From the IMG/VR virus record IMGVR_UViG_3300023108_000113, positions 1 to 28,924 of that record: 28,924 bases of DNA; one strand, written 5' to 3'. Of the stretch, positions 1,948 through 24,613 are shown one piece after another. This DNA is from a virus. A model generated the notes under the pieces. That model saw only the letters and a list, made by a program, of their open reading frames with translations, searched no databases and had not been told where the DNA came from. Within the stretch, counting starts at the first letter, position 1; the number at the start of each line of letters is the position of its first letter. The position numbers and the translations under genes are program-made.

Positions 1948-2780
1948 TTGCTTATCTTGCACAGCCGATTGACCGCTCCACGGATGGTGTGACTGCTGGC
2001 CATGCGGTCACTGTGCGCAGCATGCTGTTGGAGGCGGGGCTGACTGTGTTCTCGCCGTATCTGGCGTGGGGTTCGAAGAAACCGCCGCCCTCGAGGGTGC
2101 AGCGGGTCAACGAGTCGGCGTTGCGTGACGCTTCGGTGTTGGTCGTGGTGATGATGGAGGCCGACCATTCGCTTGGTGTGCCGTTCGAGATGGCGTTGGC
2201 TCGTGAGTGGAATATCCCGATGGTGGTGGTGACCGATATCAAACCGGAGAACTCGGTGATCCTGCGCCATTCCGGCGCTTACATCTTCGATCCTCGCTAC
2301 AGGCAGTTTGCTGTCGACAAGGCCTATCAGGTGGCGCTCGGTAAACGTGACCAGCAGATCGCCAAATGGCAGCCGTTGTCGGGTGGTGTCGCACCTCGTG
2401 CAGGGAAAGAGGGCGATGCCGGGTTCGATCTGCATTATTCGGGCAGTGAGCCGTTGACGATCCAACCGGGTGAGATGGTGAATGTTGAGGCCGGTATCGG
2501 TGTTGAGTTCCCGCCGGGTGTGTGGTGTTTGATTCTTGGCCGGTCGTCGACGTTCCAACGTCGGATGTTTGTCGCTCCGTCGGTGATCGATGCCGGCTAC
2601 CGTGGCGAACTGTTCGCCTGTGTACAGAATATCGGCGAGTATTCGCAGACGATCGAGCCGGGTGAGCGGGTCGCACAGATTGTTCCGTTCGATCTGGTGG
2701 CTAACCGGTACCGTTGGATTGAGGGGACGTTGTCTGACTCGGAGCGTGGTGCGACAGGATTTGGGAGTACGGGACGATGA
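1944..2780 (+). CDS. dut: Fusion: nucleoside 2-deoxyribosyltransferase-like domain plus dUTPase
   Basis: The C-terminal half (about residues 148-278) is a complete trimeric dUTPase with all five motifs: DAGFDLH at 158-164, GRSST at 199-203, IDAGYRGEL at 215-223 with catalytic Asp216, PGERVAQIVP at 239-248, and RGATGFGSTG at 268-277. It hydrolyses dUTP to dUMP and pyrophosphate. The N-terminal half (1-140) resembles the nucleoside 2-deoxyribosyltransferase/DNPH1 fold: YLAQPID at the start, a SVLVVVM strand, and GVPFEMALA at 78-86 with Glu82 where these enzymes keep their nucleophile. That half could cleave or exchange the base of a deoxynucleotide; its substrate cannot be read. The GTG start overlaps the previous stop as GTGA, and the stop overlaps the next gene by ATGA. 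The dUTPase is very secure; the N-terminal assignment is moderate. Confidence 0.9.
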   Translation: MIAYLAQPIDRSTDGVTAGHAVTVRSMLLEAGLTVFSPYLAWGSKKPPPSRVQRVNESALRDASVLVVVMMEADHSLGVPFEMALAREWNIPMVVVTDIKPENSVILRHSGAYIFDPRYRQFAVDKAYQVALGKRDQQIAKWQPLSGGVAPRAGKEGDAGFDLHYSGSEPLTIQPGEMVNVEAGIGVEFPPGVWCLILGRSSTFQRRMFVAPSVIDAGYRGELFACVQNIGEYSQTIEPGERVAQIVPFDLVANRYRWIEGTLSDSERGATGFGSTGR

Positions 2781-4288
2781 ACGATTTCAATAGAGACCGT
2801 TGGGGTCGGCCGTTGATTGTCCCGGCTGGCGGTGGGAAACCTGTCGCCTACAGTCGGGTGTCGTCGTATGGCCAGACGTTGGAGAACCAGTTCGGGTTGA
2901 ACAAGTGGAAACAGCGGATGGTGCTGTTGGGTGCGATCAACCGGACAGATCTGATGTCGTTGGCGACCGCTGCGAAAGACGACGACCGGAAACTCGACGG
3001 GTTGGTGCAACAGATGATGGATGCTGGCGGTGCGTCCCGTGCTGCGAACACTGGCACCGCCATCCACGATGTGTTGGCACAGGTTGATGCCGGGACGCTC
3101 GATGCCGGGTCGGTCGCCGATGAGTTTCTCGCACCTGTTCAGGCGTGGCAGACGTTGCTGGACAGTCTCGGTTGGCAGCCGGCACCAGATCTGATCGAGG
3201 TGACAGTGGTGAATGACCGGTTCGAGGCGGCCGGGTCGCTGGATAACATCTGTGTGACGACCGATGGCCGTTGTGTGGTGGTCGACAAAAAGACAGGGAA
3301 GTCGATCGGTAAGCGGCCGTTGGCCTATATGGTGCAGTTGGCGATCTACGCCACCAGCGACATCTACGATATCGCCACCGGGGAACGGCAGCCGCTCGGG
3401 GTTGACACCCGCACTGCCTATATCGCCCATATCCCGGCCGATGGTGGTGAGCCGGCGATGTACGAGGTCGATGTTGAAGAGGGGCTACGGCTGGCCGATC
3501 TGGCTTTCCAAGTGAGACAGGCGGAGCGCTCCGGGGAGCCTCTCGTGCGTCTGACCCCTGCCGACATGCCTCGACCGGCCTCTGACGCAAGGGAAGCCAA
3601 AGGAGAGGCCACCGGAGCCAACCCGGATGCACAGCGTGTCTGGTTGAAGAGCCGGGTGGCCACCATCCTCGGGTACGACACCGGACGAGACCTATTGGGC
3701 GGGTACTGGCCGGCCAACATCCCGAAACTGTCAGCCGATCATGTCTACAGCCAACTGGAGGTCGACGAGATCGTGGCCTGTCTCAACTGGATCGAGACAG
3801 TGTTGGAGGCGCCGTTCGCCGGGGACGACCCGACAAAACCGAAACCGGAACCGCCAAAAACACAGGTGCCGTTGGTCAGGGACAAACCGAAAGAAGGCCG
3901 GCGGGTCAAAGAATCGGACGTGGCAGCACTGCAAACCAAGATCGAATCGCTGCCAGAGGCGCAGCAGGAGATCATCATGCAGATCGCCAAAGAGGCCAAC
4001 AGCGCCGGTGCGTCGATATCGCTCAGACAGCGGCCATCTGTCCGCCGGTTTGAGATCGCACGACTGCTGGTGCAACTAACCAGCGACTGGCCAGATGCTG
4101 ACATCGCCCTCGGGGTGTTGCGCCATCTGACCGGGTTACAATCGGAAACGGCCGGCGATATCGTCGGCTGGCTCACAATCGAGCAGACCGCCACACTGTT
4201 GGAGGCTCTGCCCGAACTCGCCCGCACGGGCGAGATCATCATAAGGCCTGACGGCCAAATGTCCATCAATACAACCAAGGAGAACTAA
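2777..4288 (+). CDS. Cas4/RecB-type PD-(D/E)XK exonuclease with C-terminal extension
   Basis: The 503-residue protein has RecB-family nuclease landmarks: GTAIHDVL with His97, AGSLDN with Asp156, VVDKKTGK with Asp170 and Lys172, and YMVQLAIYA with Gln187. Phage proteins of this type act as DNA exonucleases in recombination and replication. Here the gene is followed by a probable ssDNA-binding protein, a common pairing. After about residue 250 the similarity to the nuclease core ends. Residues 260-279 are encoded by a repeat element also found in inverted orientation at 9021-9078. Residues 335-360 form a Pro/Lys linker, and the last 140 residues are a helical domain I do not recognise. The ATG overlaps the dUTPase stop as ATGA. 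Nuclease family is confident; biological role is inferred. Confidence 0.85.
   Translation: MNDFNRDRWGRPLIVPAGGGKPVAYSRVSSYGQTLENQFGLNKWKQRMVLLGAINRTDLMSLATAAKDDDRKLDGLVQQMMDAGGASRAANTGTAIHDVLAQVDAGTLDAGSVADEFLAPVQAWQTLLDSLGWQPAPDLIEVTVVNDRFEAAGSLDNICVTTDGRCVVVDKKTGKSIGKRPLAYMVQLAIYATSDIYDIATGERQPLGVDTRTAYIAHIPADGGEPAMYEVDVEEGLRLADLAFQVRQAERSGEPLVRLTPADMPRPASDAREAKGEATGANPDAQRVWLKSRVATILGYDTGRDLLGGYWPANIPKLSADHVYSQLEVDEIVACLNWIETVLEAPFAGDDPTKPKPEPPKTQVPLVRDKPKEGRRVKESDVAALQTKIESLPEAQQEIIMQIAKEANSAGASISLRQRPSVRRFEIARLLVQLTSDWPDADIALGVLRHLTGLQSETAGDIVGWLTIEQTATLLEALPELARTGEIIIRPDGQMSINTTKEN
3556..3612 (-). repeat. Inverted copy 1 of a 57-nt repeat element, inside the Cas4-like gene
   Basis: Bases 3581-3612 are the exact reverse complement of 9021-9052 (32 nt), and 3556-3570 are the exact reverse complement of 9064-9078 (15 nt). 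The spacers differ in sequence and are 10 and 11 nt. The element is translated in frame as Cas4-like residues about 260-279, in a linker beyond the nuclease core. Within this copy, read on the - strand, TGCGTC and a downstream GACGCA could pair. It could be a small mobile palindromic element or a functional site; the sequence does not decide. Confidence 0.8.
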
Positions 4289-4289
4289 A

Positions 4290-4691
4290 ATGGACGATTT
4301 CCTATCAACCAGCAACAGCCTGCCAGCGGTGTCATTCCGTGACGTAGGCGACCGTGCAGAGGGTGTGATCACCAACACCCGGAAACTCGAAGATCGAGAC
4401 ATGGACGGCGAACTGCGGACATGGCCAAACGGAGACCCCAAGCACGTTTGGGTGTTCGATCTCGATACCGCTGACGGCGCTGTTGCGGTTTGGGTTCGTG
4501 GCAATATGGTTACCGCCATCAAAGAGGCAGCGGCCAAGGCCAAGGTCTCAACGATGATCGGCTCGAAACTCACCATCGAACATCACGCTCTCGGTGAGCC
4601 AGCGAAGAAGGGCTACAACGCCCCGAAACTGTACCGGGCAAAGATGGAAGCAGGGCAGGCCGCCAGCGACGGCGACGGCGACTGGCTCTGA
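4290..4691 (+). CDS. Putative single-stranded DNA-binding protein
   Basis: The 133-residue protein starts at an ATG 8 bases after an AAGGAG site, one base beyond the nuclease stop. The central part alternates beta-type strands (WVFDLDTADG, AVAVWVRGNM, KLTIEHHAL), consistent with an OB-like fold. The last residues are a glycine/aspartate tail ending in DWL. SSB proteins end in a similar acidic tail with a hydrophobic tip that docks partner enzymes. The neighbours, a Cas4/RecB-type nuclease upstream and a resolvase-like nuclease and primase-polymerase downstream, fit a replication or recombination role. No clear sequence family is recognised, so this is a structural and contextual guess. Confidence 0.5.
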   Translation: MDDFLSTSNSLPAVSFRDVGDRAEGVITNTRKLEDRDMDGELRTWPNGDPKHVWVFDLDTADGAVAVWVRGNMVTAIKEAAAKAKVSTMIGSKLTIEHHALGEPAKKGYNAPKLYRAKMEAGQAASDGDGDWL

Positions 4692-4697
4692 CAGTCG

Positions 4698-4756
4698 ATG
4701 CCGGTCTGGAGTCCAATCTATCAGAGGGTTGGTTGTAGGGTGCTCCAGACCGGTAT
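4698..4756 (+). terminator. Large two-part hairpin after the ssDNA-binding gene (attenuator or structured leader)
   Basis: CCGGTCTGGAG at 4701-4711 pairs perfectly with CTCCAGACCGG at 4743-4753, and the stem extends three more pairs outward with one G-T. Within the 31-nt loop, CCAATC (4713-4718) can pair with GGTTGG (4727-4732). No run of T follows, so a classical Rho-independent terminator is doubtful. It may stabilise the upstream mRNA end or act as a leader of the next small gene, whose ribosome-binding site starts about 10 bases downstream. Confidence 0.5.
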
Positions 4757-4780
4757 CACCCATTTCGAGAGGGGACAGAT

Positions 4781-5628: not shown

Positions 5629-7485
5629 ATGAGCGAAACTGCCGCCTACAAAGAGGCGTCAAGGTTGGCACGCTATGGCTGGCGTGTCGTCCCGATCGTG
5701 CCGGGTGAGAAACGGCCATCGATGAAAGGCTGGCAACATGCCGCCACCAACAGCCAAAAAACGATCGACAACTGGTGGAAAGGGATCTACCGGTCGCACG
5801 GCCTCGGTGTCGCCACCGGTGCGCAGCCCAATGGCCAAAACCTCATCGTCATCGACATCGACGAACACGGCGAATCCGGCACAGCCACCATGGCTGCGCT
5901 GGTTGAGAAACACGGCGCACTGCCCGAAACCTTAGAGGTCGAGACCGGGAACAACGGCCGCCACATCTACCTGTTGGCACCACCCGAGTTAGAGGTACGG
6001 AACGATGCCGGGCGGGCGCTCGGTGTCGGTATCGACATCCGTGGTGACGGCGGCCAAGTGTTGGCACCACCGACCGTCCACCCGAACGGCACCCCGTACC
6101 GGTGGGCAGAGGGCAGATCGCCAGATGAGTGTACGCCGAAACCAGCGCCACGTTGGTTGCTCGACGCTATCGCCAAGAAAGACGTGGCACCACCCACCAC
6201 CACGTTGAGCAACGACGGCAACGACTCGCCTGCCGCTCGGTACAACCAGCGGACGACGTGGGACGGGCTGCTGTCTGCCGACGGCTGGACGTTGGTGAGG
6301 ACAGATGGCGACGGCGAGCAACACTGGACACGGCCGGGCAAACAGGGTCGTGACGGGACGTCGGCCACGGTCGGCTACCGTGGGCAGGACGTGCTGGTGG
6401 TGTTCACTTCGAGCGTGCCTTGGCTGCCGCCCGGTGCCTATAGCCGGTTTGGCTACTACGCATGTCGCCATCACAACGGTGACCGCAGCGAAGCGGCTCG
6501 TACGCTTCTCCGGGAGGAACACCCGACCACAGCGGCGGAAACACCTGACACCGAGTCGGACACTGACCGTGACCTACTGTCGATGTTGATTGACTGGCCG
6601 ACTTTCTGGTCGCAGGATCACAGTGTGGCCGAGTGGTTGGCTGAGCCGTTGATCGCCGAGCACAGGGCGCACGCCATTTTCGCTCCGGGTGGCACTGGTA
6701 AGAGCCTGTTGGCGTTGTGGCTGGCCGCAGCGGTGGCCACTGGCACGCCGATCTTTGGCCATGCTGGTCGGCCTCGATGTGTGCTGTATCTCGACTATGA
6801 GATGACTGGTGATGACCTGTCGGAACGGTTGGTCGGTATGGGCTATGGTGCGGAGCACGATCTGTCGAATCTCCGCTATGCGTTGTTGCCGTCGCTGTCG
6901 TCGCTCGACGGTGAAGAGGGCGGCCGGCAGGTGCAACGTTTGGCTCGGCTGGTTGGCGCCGAGTTGGTGGTGATCGACACTTTCGGCCGGGCGGTGTCTG
7001 GCGATGAGAACGATGCGGACACGGTGCGGTCGTTCTACCGTCACACTGGCTATCTGTTGAAGCAGGACGGTGTTGCGTCGGTCAGGATCGACCATGCTGG
7101 TAAGAATCTGGAGAAGGGGCAGCGTGGGTCGTCGGCGAAGAATGACGACGTGGATATCGTGTGGGAGATGACCAAGCGTGGCGACCGGTTCGTGTTGAAG
7201 ACCCGGAAGGCTCGCATGGGGTGGGTGCCGCAGCAGATCACGTTGGCGATGTCGGATGAGCCGATCGTCTACCGGTTGGTGACTGATGGTGTGTCGGATT
7301 CGAAGGTGGCCGAGTGTCTCGATGCGTTGCAGGATCTCGATATCGACCCGGAGTTGTCTGAGCGGAAGGTGGCGGCGCTGGTCAGGGATCATGGGTTGAA
7401 GATCGGGTCGGATGCTTTGCGGGTGGCGTTGCGTAGTTACCGGCAGCAGATGGCGGGCGACGGTTTGGACTCATACCTGCTCTGA
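5629..7485 (+). CDS. Primase-polymerase fused to RecA-like (RepA-type) ATPase/helicase
   Basis: The 618-residue protein has an N-terminal Prim-Pol domain of the archaeo-eukaryotic primase superfamily: DID at 76-78 (metal ligands), GNNGRHIYL with Arg111-His112, and GIDIRGDGGQVLAPP at 134-148. Residues about 205-295 form a linker domain typical of actinobacterial homologues. The C-terminal half is a RecA-like hexameric ATPase: GGTGKS at 354-359, YLDYEM at 387-392, LVVID at 446-450, His489 and GSSAK at 500-504. It should make primers, may extend DNA, and unwinds the fork. It is the only polymerase candidate in the window. An ATG after GAGGAAC, 10 bases past the nuclease stop, gives the start. 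The stop lies 6 bases before the 28-bp palindrome. Families are secure; whether it is the main replicase is inference. Confidence 0.9.
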   Translation: MSETAAYKEASRLARYGWRVVPIVPGEKRPSMKGWQHAATNSQKTIDNWWKGIYRSHGLGVATGAQPNGQNLIVIDIDEHGESGTATMAALVEKHGALPETLEVETGNNGRHIYLLAPPELEVRNDAGRALGVGIDIRGDGGQVLAPPTVHPNGTPYRWAEGRSPDECTPKPAPRWLLDAIAKKDVAPPTTTLSNDGNDSPAARYNQRTTWDGLLSADGWTLVRTDGDGEQHWTRPGKQGRDGTSATVGYRGQDVLVVFTSSVPWLPPGAYSRFGYYACRHHNGDRSEAARTLLREEHPTTAAETPDTESDTDRDLLSMLIDWPTFWSQDHSVAEWLAEPLIAEHRAHAIFAPGGTGKSLLALWLAAAVATGTPIFGHAGRPRCVLYLDYEMTGDDLSERLVGMGYGAEHDLSNLRYALLPSLSSLDGEEGGRQVQRLARLVGAELVVIDTFGRAVSGDENDADTVRSFYRHTGYLLKQDGVASVRIDHAGKNLEKGQRGSSAKNDDVDIVWEMTKRGDRFVLKTRKARMGWVPQQITLAMSDEPIVYRLVTDGVSDSKVAECLDALQDLDIDPELSERKVAALVRDHGLKIGSDALRVALRSYRQQMAGDGLDSYLL

Positions 7486-7491
7486 CTTGTC

Positions 7492-7519
7492 GAAGATTAT
7501 TGTAATTACAATAATCTTC
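7492..7519. promoter_or_regulatory. Perfect 28-bp AT-rich palindrome, operator candidate copy 1
   Basis: The half site GAAGATTATTGTAA is followed directly by its exact reverse complement. Such an AT-rich perfect palindrome stands out in this GC-rich sequence. It ends 5 bases before a -35-like box. A near copy at 20214-20241 has the same 40-base distance to its start codon. This points to a dimeric regulator binding site. A terminator for the upstream gene is less likely because the stem is AT-rich and no T tract follows. Confidence 0.8.
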
Positions 7520-7945: not shown

Positions 7946-8380
7946 ATGAGCAAGCCAAAGTACACAGTCACCCTGCCAGACGGAAGCGTCGTCACCCGCC
8001 GCACCGAGCGCACCTACAGCCACGTGATCGTCTCACACTACGACACCGAGAAGGCCATCGCCGACGCCACCAACAGCCTCAACAACTGCGAAGCCAGCCT
8101 CGCCCGCTACATGGACAATCTCGTCGCTGCGGAGACCGACCGGGACGCCAACAACGCCCGTATCGACATCGCTGATGCACAAAACCGGCTCGGCAAGATC
8201 CAAGCCGAGATCGCTCGCCTGAAGACCACCGGCCTCGGCAAGTCGTGGGTGCTCGCATGGTGCGGCCGTCCAGATCTCGCACAGAAGAAGATCGAATCGA
8301 TGCGGTCGCAAGCCCGCCGCAACGGCTACGACGACCTGCCCGGCGTCACAGCGATCGAGGTTGAGGAGATCGCACGATGA
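7946..8380 (+). CDS. Hypothetical helical protein, 144 aa
   Basis: After a short beta segment (KYTVTLPDGSVVTRR), residues about 35-95 form a long charged helix with a heptad-like pattern, probably coiled coil. The C-terminal part contains KSWVLAWCGRPDLAQKK. No family is recognised. An AAAGGAAC site precedes the ATG, and the stop overlaps the next gene as ATGA. Codon use is C-ending like its neighbours. Confidence 0.75.
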   Translation: MSKPKYTVTLPDGSVVTRRTERTYSHVIVSHYDTEKAIADATNSLNNCEASLARYMDNLVAAETDRDANNARIDIADAQNRLGKIQAEIARLKTTGLGKSWVLAWCGRPDLAQKKIESMRSQARRNGYDDLPGVTAIEVEEIAR

Positions 8381-8568: not shown

Positions 8569-8795
8569 GCGACTACCTAGCAGAACTACGGCGCCCCATC
8601 CTCGCCGACCGAGAGCAATATCTGGTCGTCTGTTATTCAACACCTGACGACTGGAGAGTCTTCAGGGGTTGGGTCAGGCTGTCCAAAGACGGCCTGACAG
8701 TCAGCGCCCGGAAGCCTCACGGCCGGCGCTGGTTCCGACTGTGCAAAACCGAACATGTGGTGTCGAGCCGCATGCTCGATTGGGCGCAGCGATGA
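8565..8795 (+). CDS. Hypothetical protein, 76 aa
   Basis: The ATG at 8565 overlaps the previous stop, which fixes the start although the same frame is open further upstream. The product is basic with several Trp (DDWRVFRGWVRL and GRRWFRLCK), suggesting a small beta-rich fold. No family is recognised. The stop overlaps the next gene as ATGA. Confidence 0.65.
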   Translation: MSDYLAELRRPILADREQYLVVCYSTPDDWRVFRGWVRLSKDGLTVSARKPHGRRWFRLCKTEHVVSSRMLDWAQR

Positions 8796-8998
8796 CTAAC
8801 ACAATCCCCATCGGGGTCGCACACCAGATCCGGGCAGCGAAAGAACGCACCCGGCAACGCCAGATGGCATTCCTCGGCGAGGCGCTGGCCGCCGTCGCAG
8901 CGGGCAACCTCGACCGGCTCGGTGACGTGGTCACCCAATGCCGGCTGTTGGGACTGAACCCGGACGAGGTACTAGCCCACCCATCGTCGAGCAGGTAG
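8792..8998 (+). CDS. Hypothetical protein, 68 aa
   Basis: The ATG overlaps the previous stop. The protein is helical and basic near its N-terminus (HQIRAAKERTRQRQ), then ALAAVAAGNLDRL and a C-terminal helix. It is the last gene of the rightward left-arm block and ends 23 bases before the structured element in the convergent gap. Function unknown. Confidence 0.65.
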   Translation: MTNTIPIGVAHQIRAAKERTRQRQMAFLGEALAAVAAGNLDRLGDVVTQCRLLGLNPDEVLAHPSSSR

Positions 8999-9020
8999 AC
9001 ACCCTCCCCGTCTGCTTTCC

Positions 9021-9108
9021 GTGGCCTCTCCTTTGGCTTCCCTTGCGTCAGAACCCCATCTGGGGCATGTCGGCAGGGTTCGGGGCTTCCCGACCAAAGG
9101 AGAGCCAC
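9021..9108. repeat. Copy 2 of the repeat element, forming a large hairpin between convergent genes
   Basis: Bases 9021-9078 are the second copy of the element found inverted at 3556-3612. GTGGCCTCTCCTTTGG at 9021-9036 pairs with CCAAAGGAGAGCCAC at 9094-9108 with a single bulge. Inside, CCCC (9054-9057) faces GGGG (9062-9065), and GAACCC (9051-9056) could alternatively pair with the later GGGTTC. The gap 8999-9133 separates converging transcripts, so it may also serve as a two-way terminator, although no T tracts are seen. Nothing else is visible in the gap. Confidence 0.7.
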
Positions 9109-9133
9109 GCTCGACACGATTGGAACGGGCTGC

Positions 9134-10138
9134 TCAATCGAGCCACACCAGATGCGATCCCGTCACCCGACCAGCCGCCGGATCAACAAAATGCAGACGC
9201 TGCGACGGCTGCCCTCGAGCCGCTACGAACTCCGCCGCATAGGCATTCTCTGATTCCGGCGACCCCGTCACATATATCTGGCCACCGTTGGCCATCGTCA
9301 AAGTCATCGGAGTGTGGAAATGACCCATATAGACATCGTGGAACGGCTCCACCACCCCGGTAGCCCACGAGTTGGCCTTCCGCAAGATACCGAATGCCGG
9401 AGTGTTGCCACCGAACGATTTGATCTCGTCGCCGTGAACAAGCAACGCCCGATATTCGCCAACCTCAACAATCTGGTACCAATCGGCCGAGGTTCTCCAC
9501 GTCACATCGGCAACATCGGCGAACCTGTCGCCAGCGATCCGGTACGCCATCCGGTCGATGTTGTCCCCGGCCGGGTTCTCGCCCTTCCTACCGATACGAC
9601 CATGGTTGCCGTACTCGCAGATCACATCGACCGCATCGAAGTCGGCTAACAGCCGGCGGATGAACTGCTCCATCAACCCGGCACAGGCAAACAACTGCTC
9701 GAACAGATGTGCCTCAACCTCCCACGCCTGACCGGGAAAGATCGAAATGCCCTCGACCATGTCACCACCGAACATGACTGTGGCGGTCGACACCGGATGG
9801 TCGGCACGCTGTACCGCCACAATCCGACAGATCTCCTCGGCGAACGCCATGATCCGCTGCTCGCATGTGGCGATGTCGTAGCCGCTGGTCATCTTCCCCA
9901 TCTGCCAGTCGGTGGCGTGGATCAACGCCACCTCGGCACCGGCACGTTTCCGGGTTTTAGGTTGCCGTTTGACCGGTGGCGCAGCGCCCACCGCCAGCCC
10001 GGCGTCACGTGCCGCATCGTAGACAGCATCGATGAAAGCCGCCGTTTTCCGTTTGGCGGTGGCTGTTGCCCGCTGTTGGCGTTGTAACGCTGCCCGCAGT
10101 TGAGCGATCTCTTCCGCTTGGTCGAACTCTTCGATCAT
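9134..10138 (-). CDS. Calcineurin-like metallophosphoesterase
   Basis: The 334-residue protein starts at the ATG that overlaps the HTH gene stop as ATGA. An N-terminal coiled-coil-like segment is followed by the metallophosphoesterase motifs in order: ATDWQ near residue 75, GGDMVEG near 124, YGNHGR in the middle, LVHGDE, and GHFHTP near the end. These bind two metals and hydrolyse phosphoesters; phage members resemble DNA-repair nucleases of the SbcD/Mre11 superfamily. The first motif has Gln where many members have His. It is the last gene of the leftward late transcript, after the lysis genes. Substrate is unknown; a nuclease role is the best guess. Confidence 0.85.
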   Translation of the reverse strand: MIEEFDQAEEIAQLRAALQRQQRATATAKRKTAAFIDAVYDAARDAGLAVGAAPPVKRQPKTRKRAGAEVALIHATDWQMGKMTSGYDIATCEQRIMAFAEEICRIVAVQRADHPVSTATVMFGGDMVEGISIFPGQAWEVEAHLFEQLFACAGLMEQFIRRLLADFDAVDVICEYGNHGRIGRKGENPAGDNIDRMAYRIAGDRFADVADVTWRTSADWYQIVEVGEYRALLVHGDEIKSFGGNTPAFGILRKANSWATGVVEPFHDVYMGHFHTPMTLTMANGGQIYVTGSPESENAYAAEFVAARGQPSQRLHFVDPAAGRVTGSHLVWLD

Positions 10139-10368
10139 AGATCTGCCGCTCTTCTCCAGTTGTTGACCAGATGAATACTGATCGGGTAGCCCCATCCGGT
10201 GAGCACTTTGCTGACCGCAGGCGCTGTGTACGTCCGATCTGCCAGTGCTTGGCGGGCTGCTGCAGCCCGCTCCGGGTTGTTGACGTCGAGATCTTCAAAC
10301 ATCATCTCGATGTTCGACTTGCGTTTCTTTTTGGTGTTGGCATTGTCGAATGCTGACATATCGGGCAT
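10135..10368 (-). CDS. Small helix-turn-helix protein, 77 aa
   Basis: A perfect AGGAGG precedes the ATG. The N-terminus is basic (KKKRKSN), and the C-terminal half (ALADRTYTAPAVSKVL, then PISIHLVNNWRR) reads as a helix-turn-helix: a turn between two short helices ending in a basic recognition helix. It overlaps the metallophosphoesterase by ATGA, so the two are made together. It could regulate transcription or guide its partner to DNA. The fold is inferred from sequence pattern only. Confidence 0.6.
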   Translation of the reverse strand: MPDMSAFDNANTKKKRKSNIEMMFEDLDVNNPERAAAARQALADRTYTAPAVSKVLTGWGYPISIHLVNNWRRAADL

Positions 10369-12735: not shown

Positions 12736-12954
12736 TCATGCCGGCGGGTCGGGGAAGTCGGCGGTTTCTGATGGTTCCCATGTTGCCGGGAAGTCACGCA
12801 ACGCCTGCCGGTAGGTAGCCCACACTTGCCGGTCTCTGTCCGATAGTCCGTTGTCCGGTAGTTGTGTCCAGTCTGATAACGATAAAAGATTGTCACGTTG
12901 GCGACGCATTGACGCTTCGTAGCCGTCGGGAATATCTGAAACTGCGTGAATCAT
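12736..12954 (-). CDS. Tail-associated chaperone-like protein (Phage_tail_APC type)
   Basis: The 72-residue protein contains RQRDNLLSLSDWTQLPD, then WATYRQALRDFP and a Pro-rich end. This closely matches the small phage tail assembly chaperone family often encoded just after tail fibre genes. Its ATG overlaps the stop of the fibre-like gene. It may help fold or attach the fibre. Confidence comes from the characteristic DWTQLPD and YRQALRD pieces. Confidence 0.75.
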   Translation of the reverse strand: MIHAVSDIPDGYEASMRRQRDNLLSLSDWTQLPDNGLSDRDRQVWATYRQALRDFPATWEPSETADFPDPPA

Positions 12955-13394
12955 GCTAATCCTAAATCTTCAACCCACAAACGCATAGGGCTAGTAGTGT
13001 CGGCGTAAAAATCCGCAATAGTACCGCCATCGCGATATGCCTGTAAATTTAATGTTCGGCTACCAGTAGTAAAAGTCGTGAGGGTCGCATAGTTGATAAT
13101 CGTTCCATAAGTCAACCCACCCTGATACCCCCTGCCTTTTATGCTGCTGAGGTCGTCGATAAATTGCATTTGCATACGGCTACTTGGCGTTCCCATTGCA
13201 TTTGAAACTACAAAATTCAAACGGTACAGTCGCGTTGAATCCGCTGTGAAACTTACTGATAAAACAGTTTGATAACCGGCTGTCGCTGTAAAAGAGGTTG
13301 TACGGCTACCCGCCACAACTATGCCCGCCGGTAGTGCGTTCATGTCTGACGCTTGTAGAACGTCGCCCGCTGTGAAGTCGCCCGGTGCGGTCAT
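12951..13394 (-). CDS. Minor tail/fibre-like protein
   Basis: The 147-residue product begins with TAGDVLQASDMNALPAG, an opening common to phage tail fibre or tip proteins. The rest is a beta-rich, Ser/Thr/Gly-rich domain (TATAGYQTVLSVSF and GSRTLNLQAY) like fibre knobs. It is more AT-rich than its surroundings. Overlaps by ATGA on both sides tie it to the tail operon. Receptor binding is plausible but unproven. Confidence 0.65.
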   Translation of the reverse strand: MTAPGDFTAGDVLQASDMNALPAGIVVAGSRTTSFTATAGYQTVLSVSFTADSTRLYRLNFVVSNAMGTPSSRMQMQFIDDLSSIKGRGYQGGLTYGTIINYATLTTFTTGSRTLNLQAYRDGGTIADFYADTTSPMRLWVEDLGLA

Positions 13395-13558: not shown

Positions 13559-14176
13559 TCACCCGTCGTTATATCCGTAAACCCGAATAGTGCCACCCGT
13601 CAAGGTGCCTGAGGAAGTAAAGAAATACAAGTCTGTGACGCTTTGACTCGGTGCGTACATGCCATTTACCCAAACACCAGACAATAAACCCGTGCCGTTT
13701 GAGTGGATTGCCGTAGAAGTTGAAGCCGAATAGGGCGTAATTACATCGAACGCCACTGACAACCTACTTGGGTTGGTGTCCAAATACGTTAGATCAAGTT
13801 GTGCGGCATCATAAAACGACCATGTATTTACTGTCCCGGTGTACAACACGGCTTGACCGCCACCCCAATACTCATCAGCGTTGCCGCTCCCGAACCTGAA
13901 TCGCAATGTTTGACCGCCAGAAGTACTTGCATACGTTCCGCTCACTATCACACGGTAGTCGTCAAACGTGCTATTGAATGCGTTAGTCATTGTCACCGAG
14001 GCCACACCGCTACCGATAGTTTGTGTTTTGACCAGAACTAGCCCGGCGTACTGCTGTAACGCTTCCACCGTGTCGTTAACCGTTATATGTTGGTCGGCGT
14101 GGCTAGGACTGTTCAACGCCGAACTAGCGGTCGGGTTCGTGAACGTCTGCACGCTATTAGGCCAGTTTGTCGCCAT
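13559..14176 (-). CDS. Tail fibre/receptor-binding candidate
   Basis: The 205-residue protein begins with WPNSVQTFTNPTASSALNSP and ADQHITVNDTVEALQ, an N-terminal section common in phage fibres that sets the protein on the tail tip. The remainder is a beta-sandwich-like domain rich in aromatic, Ser, Thr and Gly residues (FRFGSGNADEYWGGGQAVLY). Like the 12951 gene it ends in a small fibre-knob-type fold and is AT-richer than the flanks. A GTGAGGA site precedes the ATG. Host recognition is the likely role. Confidence 0.7.
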   Translation of the reverse strand: MATNWPNSVQTFTNPTASSALNSPSHADQHITVNDTVEALQQYAGLVLVKTQTIGSGVASVTMTNAFNSTFDDYRVIVSGTYASTSGGQTLRFRFGSGNADEYWGGGQAVLYTGTVNTWSFYDAAQLDLTYLDTNPSRLSVAFDVITPYSASTSTAIHSNGTGLLSGVWVNGMYAPSQSVTDLYFFTSSGTLTGGTIRVYGYNDG

Positions 14177-20213: not shown

Positions 20214-20241
20214 GAAGATTATTGTAATTGCAACAATCTTC
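20214..20241. promoter_or_regulatory. 28-bp palindrome, operator candidate copy 2
   Basis: The left half is identical to copy 1 (GAAGATTATTGTAA). The right half differs at two positions (TTGCAACAATCTTC). It lies between divergent genes, 43 bases from the connector start and 40 bases from the ATG at 20282. The same distance applies in copy 1. It cannot serve here as terminator of an upstream + gene, which supports an operator role. Confidence 0.8.
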
Positions 20242-23170: not shown

Positions 23171-23207
23171 GTCCCACCCCATCGACTACCCGGCGATGGG
23201 GTGGGAC
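23171..23207 (-). terminator. Strong hairpin after the capsid gene
   Basis: GTCCCACCCCATCG at 23171-23184 and CGATGGGGTGGGAC at 23194-23207 form a perfect 14-bp stem with a 9-base loop. It lies 9 bases after the capsid stop on the - strand. After the stem the transcript has ACTACCCTTT, a weak T run. It most likely lowers transcription beyond the capsid gene or protects the mRNA end. Confidence 0.75.
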
Positions 23208-23215
23208 TCTTCAGA

Positions 23216-24613
23216 TCACTGGTTCTGCAGGAGGCGGAACCCGAGATCGTTGATGCTGTCAAACCCATGGCGAGCGTAGGCGAACCAGCCACGCTGACCT
23301 GATGGGCGGTTGTTGCCGGTGGCGAACAAGTGTGGGATCAACTCGACGCTCATGCCGGCACGTTGTGCCACCAAGAAGTTCGAGAAGTCACCCACGGTGA
23401 GGATGTTCGCTGCGCCAGTGGTGCCGGTGAACTCCGGTGCGTAGTCCGTGGTGCGGATTGGACGGCCGAACAACGTGCCGATGCCGCCTGCGGCGAGATC
23501 GACGGTGTAGTAGGCGCTGTCTGCTCCTGCGGCGAACGAACGGATTTCGTTCTCCACGTCGGTGTTCATGATCCATGTGGCGTTTGCACGGTAGCGCTCT
23601 GGCAGGCTCTTCCATGTCTTGAGCAGGTCAACTGCACCGAATGCGCCGTCGGTTGTGACGACGACCTCGACGTTGGTGTTGGCGTCGAGTGCGGTGAAGA
23701 TGCCGGTTGGCTGTGATGAGCCTGAACCGGTGATGGTCTGCTGTGCGACGAGGTCGATGTATCCCTGATCGAGGAGGCGGCGCATCTCGGCAGCGAATGC
23801 CGGATAGTCTGAGCCTACTTCGATCGAGTATGGGATGAAGCCACGTGCGGTGTACACCGGGACGGTCGGCTGTGCGAGCGTCGGTGAGTCATCGCTGACT
23901 TCTGCTGCTTCGGCGTCGTATGACCATGACACGCCTGCGCTGCTGACGCCTTTCCATTCGTCGGTCGTGATCGTGACAACACGAGCAAGATCGAGGACTG
24001 GAGCGGCTGATGCGCCGGATGTCAAGATGATCGATGGGTCGATCAACACCGGGATGCCGAATCCACCGGCTGCGTCGGTGCCTTCGCTCATCGCACGGAA
24101 CTCGTCGAGCGCACGTGCCTCTTCAGCGTTGAACGCTGGAGCGGACTGTGTTACGCCCTTCATGAAGGCCGAGCGGTATGCGTCGGTCTCCGTGAGCACC
24201 ATACGCTTGGCGATGACGCCGCCGTCGGTGAGTGCGTTCTTCGTGCGAAGAAGCGCATCGACGTGGTCGCCGTTGCGGGCTGCGAGGTGTGAACCGTCAC
24301 GGTCGAGGATGGCGAGCGCTGCGTCACGCAACTCTGACCGTGTTGCACGGGCAGGGTCGATGTCGGTAGCGGTACGCTGCATGACCTGTGGTGCGTCGAA
24401 ACCTGCGGCACGCTCGGTGGCGATTTCACGGGCTGCGGCGACTCGTGCCTCACGCTCGACTGCTGCGTCACGCTTGGCGACGAGAGCCTCGACGTCGGCG
24501 AGACGCTGATCGAGTTCGGCGTCTTCTTCTGGTGTGATTTCTTGCTGTTCGGAGAGTTCGATGACCCGGCTGCGGATTTCTTCGATCTCCTGATTCATCT
24601 TTTCGATGTTCAT
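23216..24613 (-). CDS. Major capsid protein (HK97 fold)
   Basis: The 465-residue protein starts with a charged coiled coil of about 70-110 residues (MNQEIEEIRSRVIELSEQ), the scaffold-like delta domain cut off by the protease in HK97-type phages. The mature part has SEGTDAAGGFGIPVLIDPS, the ARGFIPYSIEVGSDYPAF section and LFGRPIRTTDYAP typical of Phage_capsid. A GAAAGGGGA site precedes the ATG. It follows the protease, as usual. Confidence 0.95.
   Translation of the reverse strand: MNIEKMNQEIEEIRSRVIELSEQQEITPEEDAELDQRLADVEALVAKRDAAVEREARVAAAREIATERAAGFDAPQVMQRTATDIDPARATRSELRDAALAILDRDGSHLAARNGDHVDALLRTKNALTDGGVIAKRMVLTETDAYRSAFMKGVTQSAPAFNAEEARALDEFRAMSEGTDAAGGFGIPVLIDPSIILTSGASAAPVLDLARVVTITTDEWKGVSSAGVSWSYDAEAAEVSDDSPTLAQPTVPVYTARGFIPYSIEVGSDYPAFAAEMRRLLDQGYIDLVAQQTITGSGSSQPTGIFTALDANTNVEVVVTTDGAFGAVDLLKTWKSLPERYRANATWIMNTDVENEIRSFAAGADSAYYTVDLAAGGIGTLFGRPIRTTDYAPEFTGTTGAANILTVGDFSNFLVAQRAGMSVELIPHLFATGNNRPSGQRGWFAYARHGFDSINDLGFRLLQNQ

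Follow-up and report, generated by a model that had tools for sequence, protein, structure and literature searches.

The locus described here raises a simple question: how did nearly the same stretch of about 60 nucleotides come to stand twice in one phage genome, in opposite orientation, once translated within a nuclease gene and once in the gap between two convergent genes? The window, by which we mean the whole stretch of 28,924 nucleotides analysed, is a 28.9-kb fragment of an actinobacterial-type phage. Its plus strand carries an early block encoding a PurZ-like adenylosuccinate synthetase, a dUTPase, a Cas4-like PD-(D/E)XK nuclease, a small protein at the position of an SSB, a WhiB-like protein, a RusA-like protein and a prim-pol/AAA protein. 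The name SSB is our own label and was given from placement; the PHROG of this protein has no known function. The minus-strand block comprises an exonuclease/phosphoesterase gene and structural genes. The features needed for the question are the following:

2777–4288, plus strand: Cas4-like PD-(D/E)XK nuclease gene, 503 aa (Pfam PDDEXK_1, E 1.6e-4)
3553–3612, plus strand: gene copy of the element, 60 nt, in frame at nuclease residues 260–279, 88.5% identical to the gap copy
8792–8998, plus strand: final plus-strand gene ahead of the gap, 68 aa, without a match in family searches
9021–9081, minus strand: gap copy of the element, read on the minus strand in the same sense as the gene copy
9134–10195, minus strand: convergent gene, exonuclease/calcineurin-like phosphoesterase, 353 aa (PHROG 284 exonuclease, E 6.6e-54)

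The product of the convergent gene shares 65% identity with an annotated calcineurin-like phosphoesterase. Elsewhere in the window, the PurZ-like gene (354–1397, PHROG 1211) lies beside the prim-pol gene and has a 56% identical relative in locus L132; together, PurZ and prim-pol possibly point to a 2-aminoadenine phage genome. Two minus-strand genes, at 12951–13394 and 13559–14176, depart clearly from the rest of the genome in codon usage: their mean scores are −0.78 and −0.64, where values elsewhere lie at about −0.15 to −0.41. They were perhaps recently acquired.

An inverted repeat shared by a gene and a gap

Comparison of the window with itself by blastn aligned positions 3553–3612 with 9081–9021 as inverted copies of 60 and 61 nt, with 88.5% identity over 61 columns (E ~2e-14). 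Once a masked low-complexity stretch at about 11.2–11.7 kb is set aside, this is the strongest non-local repeat in the window. The initial annotation had described 32 and 15 exactly matching bases in opposite orientation around 10–11 unlike ones, and both the window and the self-comparison confirm it: the 32-nt exact match joins 3581–3612 to 9021–9052, the second is the 15-nt CCCTGCCGACATGCC, and 10 unlike bases on one side versus 11 on the other separate the two blocks. The coordinates of the open reading frames likewise agree with its placement of one copy in frame in the linker of the Cas4-like protein and of the other in the convergent gap. This gap is 135 nt long (8999–9133) and is bounded by the plus-strand stop at 8998 and the minus-strand stop at 9134.

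Both copies recur, in unchanged orientation, in an independently assembled relative (IMGVR 3300007344_000127; 94.5% nucleotide identity over 12.1 kb), and two more independent contigs contain the gap copy. The inverted pair is therefore not an assembly artefact.

The gap copy as part of a gene-end hairpin

The gap copy belongs to a larger hairpin of 86 nt, overlooked by the initial annotation, which lies in the middle of the gap between the convergent stop codons.

9021–9106, either strand: complete hairpin, with an outer stem of ~17 bp that bulges once, plus a small side hairpin and the CCCC/GGGG stem at the apex

Its outer arms are GTGGCCTCTCCTTTGG and CCAAAGGAGAG-CCAC. It begins 22 nt past the plus-strand stop at 8998 and ends 27 nt before the stop codon of the minus-strand gene at 9134. 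The predicted minimum free energy is −51 to −52 kcal/mol on either strand, with z-scores of −5.5 (plus) and −4.9 (minus), and none of 200 shuffled sequences was equally stable. The hairpin of the relative folds equally strongly (z −5.5); where the two haplotypes differ, the change lies in a loop or displaces the bulge in the outer stem, and the stem stays intact. The earlier suggestion that structure may matter more than sequence thus holds for the gap copy (z ~ −5.5 in both viruses), although the CCCC/GGGG pairing that had prompted it is only the apical stem of a larger hairpin.

Neither a U-tract nor a T-run follows the stem on either strand, as it would in a classical intrinsic terminator, and the hairpin is absent from the 16 terminator-like sites found in a scan of the window. 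In Rfam the element matched no family; the sole hit was a chance one elsewhere in the window.

Comparable structures occur at the same place in related phages. We surveyed 80 loci fetched by the convergent gene, and a non-redundant set of 23 gene ends. At several of the 80 loci, long hairpins of unrelated sequence stand directly after the stop codon of the convergent-gene homologue. A stem score of at least 11 was reached by 6 of the 23 non-redundant gene ends, one of the six being that of our own virus; for random windows from the same loci, the figure was 3 of 276. The other three long hairpins of the window adjoin gene ends too:

4697–4757: long hairpin after the gene ending at 4691
7492–7519: long hairpin after the primase gene
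23171–23207: long hairpin beside the capsid-region gene ending at 23216

Because relatives often bear unrelated long hairpins after the homologous downstream gene, the likeliest role of the structure at 9021–9106 is to act in both directions, either as a terminator of the U-less (I-shaped) kind or by stabilising 3' ends, with or without Rho; termination is what we infer from the sequence. In GC-rich Streptomyces, structured 3' ends that lack a U-tract have been likened to I-shaped terminators, and bidirectional ends have been described as well (PMC8269248). Like the HS-U-lack ends of Streptomyces clavuligerus (PMC8269248), the phage structure is a strong GC-rich hairpin without a U-tract, and it resembles U-less actinobacterial ends in lying between convergent stop codons with a structure usable both ways. 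Unlike these ends, it is longer and branched, with a side hairpin and an apical stem, and it has 60 nt in common with a coding region.

In locus L013, one gene-end hairpin is present twice as a direct repeat (6079–6126 and 8290–8337; 87.5% identity over 48 nt), which shows that duplication of such hairpins does occur within this phage group. A different repeat in the window is the 28-nt palindrome GAAGATTATTGTAATTACAATAATCTTC, found at 7492–7519 and 20214–20241 within 87-nt modules that are 75% alike. Both copies lie just upstream of small genes, beside promoter-like sequence, and are possibly an operator of a phage regulator. Promoter/leader modules are also repeated directly upstream of small genes in locus L122 (2964–3054, 10948–11015 and 11307–11395).

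The gene copy in a variable nuclease linker

The nuclease matches the PHROG 466 exonuclease across residues 5–278 (E 2.4e-56). Its core, at about residues 1–250, is followed by a variable linker and then by a C-terminal region. The closest syntenic relative is L132, which corresponds to the window from purZ through the primase, with identities of 56% for purZ, 47% for the dUTPase, 46% for the nuclease, 53% for a 133-aa protein and 64% for the primase. In a global alignment of the two nucleases there is a single 20-aa gap, at residues 263–282 of the window protein, adjoining and overlapping the repeat at 3553–3612, and the whole 34.6-kb contig of L132 contains no match to the element.

3563–3622, plus strand: segment missing from L132, 60 nt or 20 aa, its placement uncertain by several residues

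Since L132 has this 20-aa gap at that spot and no element, the gene copy would most likely be an in-frame insertion, by which part of the gap hairpin was copied in inverted orientation into a variable linker. The initial annotation had asked whether residues 260–279 are an insertion, and the gap in L132 supports this, with the caveat that the linker differs in both length and sequence across 17 other homologues. None of these has a similar segment, so it is not a conserved domain common to homologous nucleases. Linkers as long as that of the window, with unrelated sequence, are found in L124–L127; given such variation in length, a deletion in L132 is possible. A genome search for closer nuclease homologues gave only relatives of 34–38% identity.

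The gene copy has no matching second outer arm. Its own fold is only slightly more stable than those of shuffled sequences in the window (z −2.3) and less so in the relative (z −1.4), where the outer stem is broken, and we set aside the idea of a structured gene copy. Codon usage was also discarded as proof of foreign origin: within the nuclease gene the segment ranks in the lowest 1%, but in a wider comparison over 24 genes it stands near the 15th percentile, with 54 of 364 non-overlapping windows scoring no higher. The gene copy probably serves as linker and nothing more.

Across 41 nuclease gene clusters, z-scores below −2 were obtained for 14.6–16.5% of linker windows versus ~4–10% of adjacent ones, an enrichment in hairpins that is no more than suggestive, since other parts of the gene equal or exceed it. 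Several individual hairpins in coding regions were seen along the way. In L124 (9817–9857), L125 (9816–9858) and L126 (9817–9857) an unrelated in-frame palindrome, GCCGGATCAGC/GCTGATCCGGC, occupies the same place in the nuclease linker; its arms are conserved, its loop has diverged and one C-G to T-A change is compensatory, in a gene of 78–89% nucleotide identity. L154, L157, L159, L160, L161, L182 and L183 have a long hairpin at about nt 348–397 of the Cas4-like gene, at the same codons in 7/7 and with z-scores down to −11. In L132, a hairpin with 19-nt arms lies inside the WhiB-like coding region (9633–9681).

Origin and direction of the copy

Short inverted duplications arise by template switching or illegitimate recombination. 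The pair described here is like them in being a lone short inverted copy, a few kb away and with arbitrary edges, and unlike plain cases in that the copies lie, respectively, in frame in a gene and within a maintained gene-end hairpin. On balance, we consider it probable that the hairpin is a gene-end element working in both directions at the RNA level, as terminator or stabiliser, and that about 60 nt of it were copied once, inverted and in frame, into the nuclease linker before the two viruses diverged.

In the sequence of events that we propose, the hairpin at 9021–9106 would be the phage's own gene-end element between two convergent stop codons. A template switch or illegitimate recombination event would have copied some 60 nt of it, comprising a single arm of the outer stem together with the apical part and the facing strand, and would have left the second outer arm behind. 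The copy would have landed inverted and in frame in the tolerant linker that joins the nuclease core to the C-terminal region, in a single event prior to the divergence of the two sampled viruses. We infer that the copying ran from gap to gene. Besides the variable linker length, one observation stands against this direction: in the relative 3300007344_000127, the similarity between the copies reaches to ~3627, about 14 nt beyond the edge of the hairpin (p ~0.007, uncorrected and one of several tests), and this is not expected of a copy taken cleanly from the hairpin. On the 5' side of the repeat, extended homology was not above chance.

It is possible, though rather unlikely, that the copying ran from gene to gap. 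A piece of the nuclease linker would then have been copied inverted into the gap, and a local template switch would have supplied the second arm, giving rise to a new gene-end hairpin. The similarity past the hairpin edge argues for this, as it implies that the tract common to both copies does not stop at the hairpin; the length of the window linker, which is within the range of the homologues, and the presence of only one outer arm in the gene copy also fit. However, the gene of L132 lacks the 60 nt, and relatives that have no gene copy frequently bear a gene-end hairpin here.

Other readings of the pair

Could the two copies be kept for what they do together? In one such model, RNA of the plus-strand operon that enters the gap would pair over at least 32 bases with the nuclease mRNA and lead to its processing or silencing. 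The gap RNA of the plus strand is antisense to the nuclease mRNA, the predicted joint fold has −146 kcal/mol as against −34.5 and −60.2 apart (sum −94.7), and none of the 47 matching bases has changed in either copy or either haplotype, at a local divergence of ~4–5%. We nevertheless consider this model very unlikely. Only two haplotypes carry both copies, and the chance of zero change in 94 bases is about 1–2% by a hand Poisson estimate that ignores coding and stem constraint. These constraints could explain the unchanged bases. Moreover, a very stable stem ties up the antisense arm, and none of ~160 related loci has an analogous nuclease/gap pair, inverted pairs joining the nuclease to a gap being absent from all of them. 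A variant in which the 3' end of the operon bears a stretch that was copied from the earlier-made nuclease message, can pair with it and is kept as half of a sense–antisense pair, so that transcription into the gap would lower nuclease expression, is very unlikely. The sole other non-local inverted repeat seen across the ~160 loci, a 190-nt repeat of 97% identity in L075 (4082–4271 and 5771–5959), reaches the end of its contig and probably results from misassembly.

The initial annotation also pointed to palindromic elements that insert in frame in genes. We judge a small mobile element of this kind, RPE- or MITE-like, to be highly improbable. The gap copy is palindromic, the gene copy is in frame, and in L124–L126 the same linker contains a palindrome, unrelated but likewise in frame, whose arms are conserved, all of which would suit such an element. 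Yet there are two copies only, the palindrome is incomplete in the gene copy, and no others were found in IMG/VR, phage records or the genomes searched. In the viral contigs of IMG/VR, the exact 23-nt core and a gapped pattern matched solely near-identical contigs of the same virus; blastn against the 50,697 phage records of INPHARED gave chance-level matches only; and the exact 21-mer is absent from 84,980 GTDB genomes (one per species). The hairpin arms with any loop were present in 30 viral contigs versus ~20 expected by a hand estimate that assumes ~43 Gb, which is about chance. As these exact-pattern or DNA searches turned up no related element in known phages, other viral contigs or the 84,980 genomes, a mobile RPE-like family is not supported, and the search of phage and host genomes that the annotation had suggested yielded no copies beyond the same virus.

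Rickettsia palindromic elements (RPEs) and other in-frame MITEs (PMC10969869) are the known systems closest to this idea. As with RPEs (PMC10969869), a palindromic sequence is also found in frame within a protein-coding gene, in a tolerant region. Unlike RPEs, the phage element exists in two copies, of which the gene copy is truncated and weakly palindromic, and it has neither a family nor copies in unrelated genes or genomes. What survives of the proposal is in-frame insertion; with a copy number of two and a gene copy that is a partial palindrome, we rejected assignment to the RPE/MITE class.

Least probable of all is that the copies form a paired site in DNA, for recombination or replication, as likewise raised at the outset, or for a protein that binds DNA: copies in opposite orientation do flank 5.4 kb in both complete pairs, but the orientation is the same in the two, with no inversion between the viruses, the middle 10–11 bases differ, one copy is coding, and neither further copies nor a recombinase tied to the pair were found. 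A separate, origin-like feature is a long inverted repeat of iteron-like ATGTCGCGC units with the loop GGGGGG...CCCCCCACCCCC, which lies downstream of replication genes in L124 (15192–15308), L126 (15685–15785), L127 (16564–16680) and L129 (18268–18384).

Implications

The feature is real, well placed and slightly unusual: an ordinary gene-end hairpin with a single in-frame inverted partial copy. The linker behind the nuclease core of Cas4-like phage exonucleases tolerates short additions, and the unrelated conserved palindrome in the linker of L124–L126 suggests that this region merits a survey. The locus would offer a case in which the non-coding sequence of a gene-end hairpin became coding in a phage, or the reverse, via one short inverted copying.
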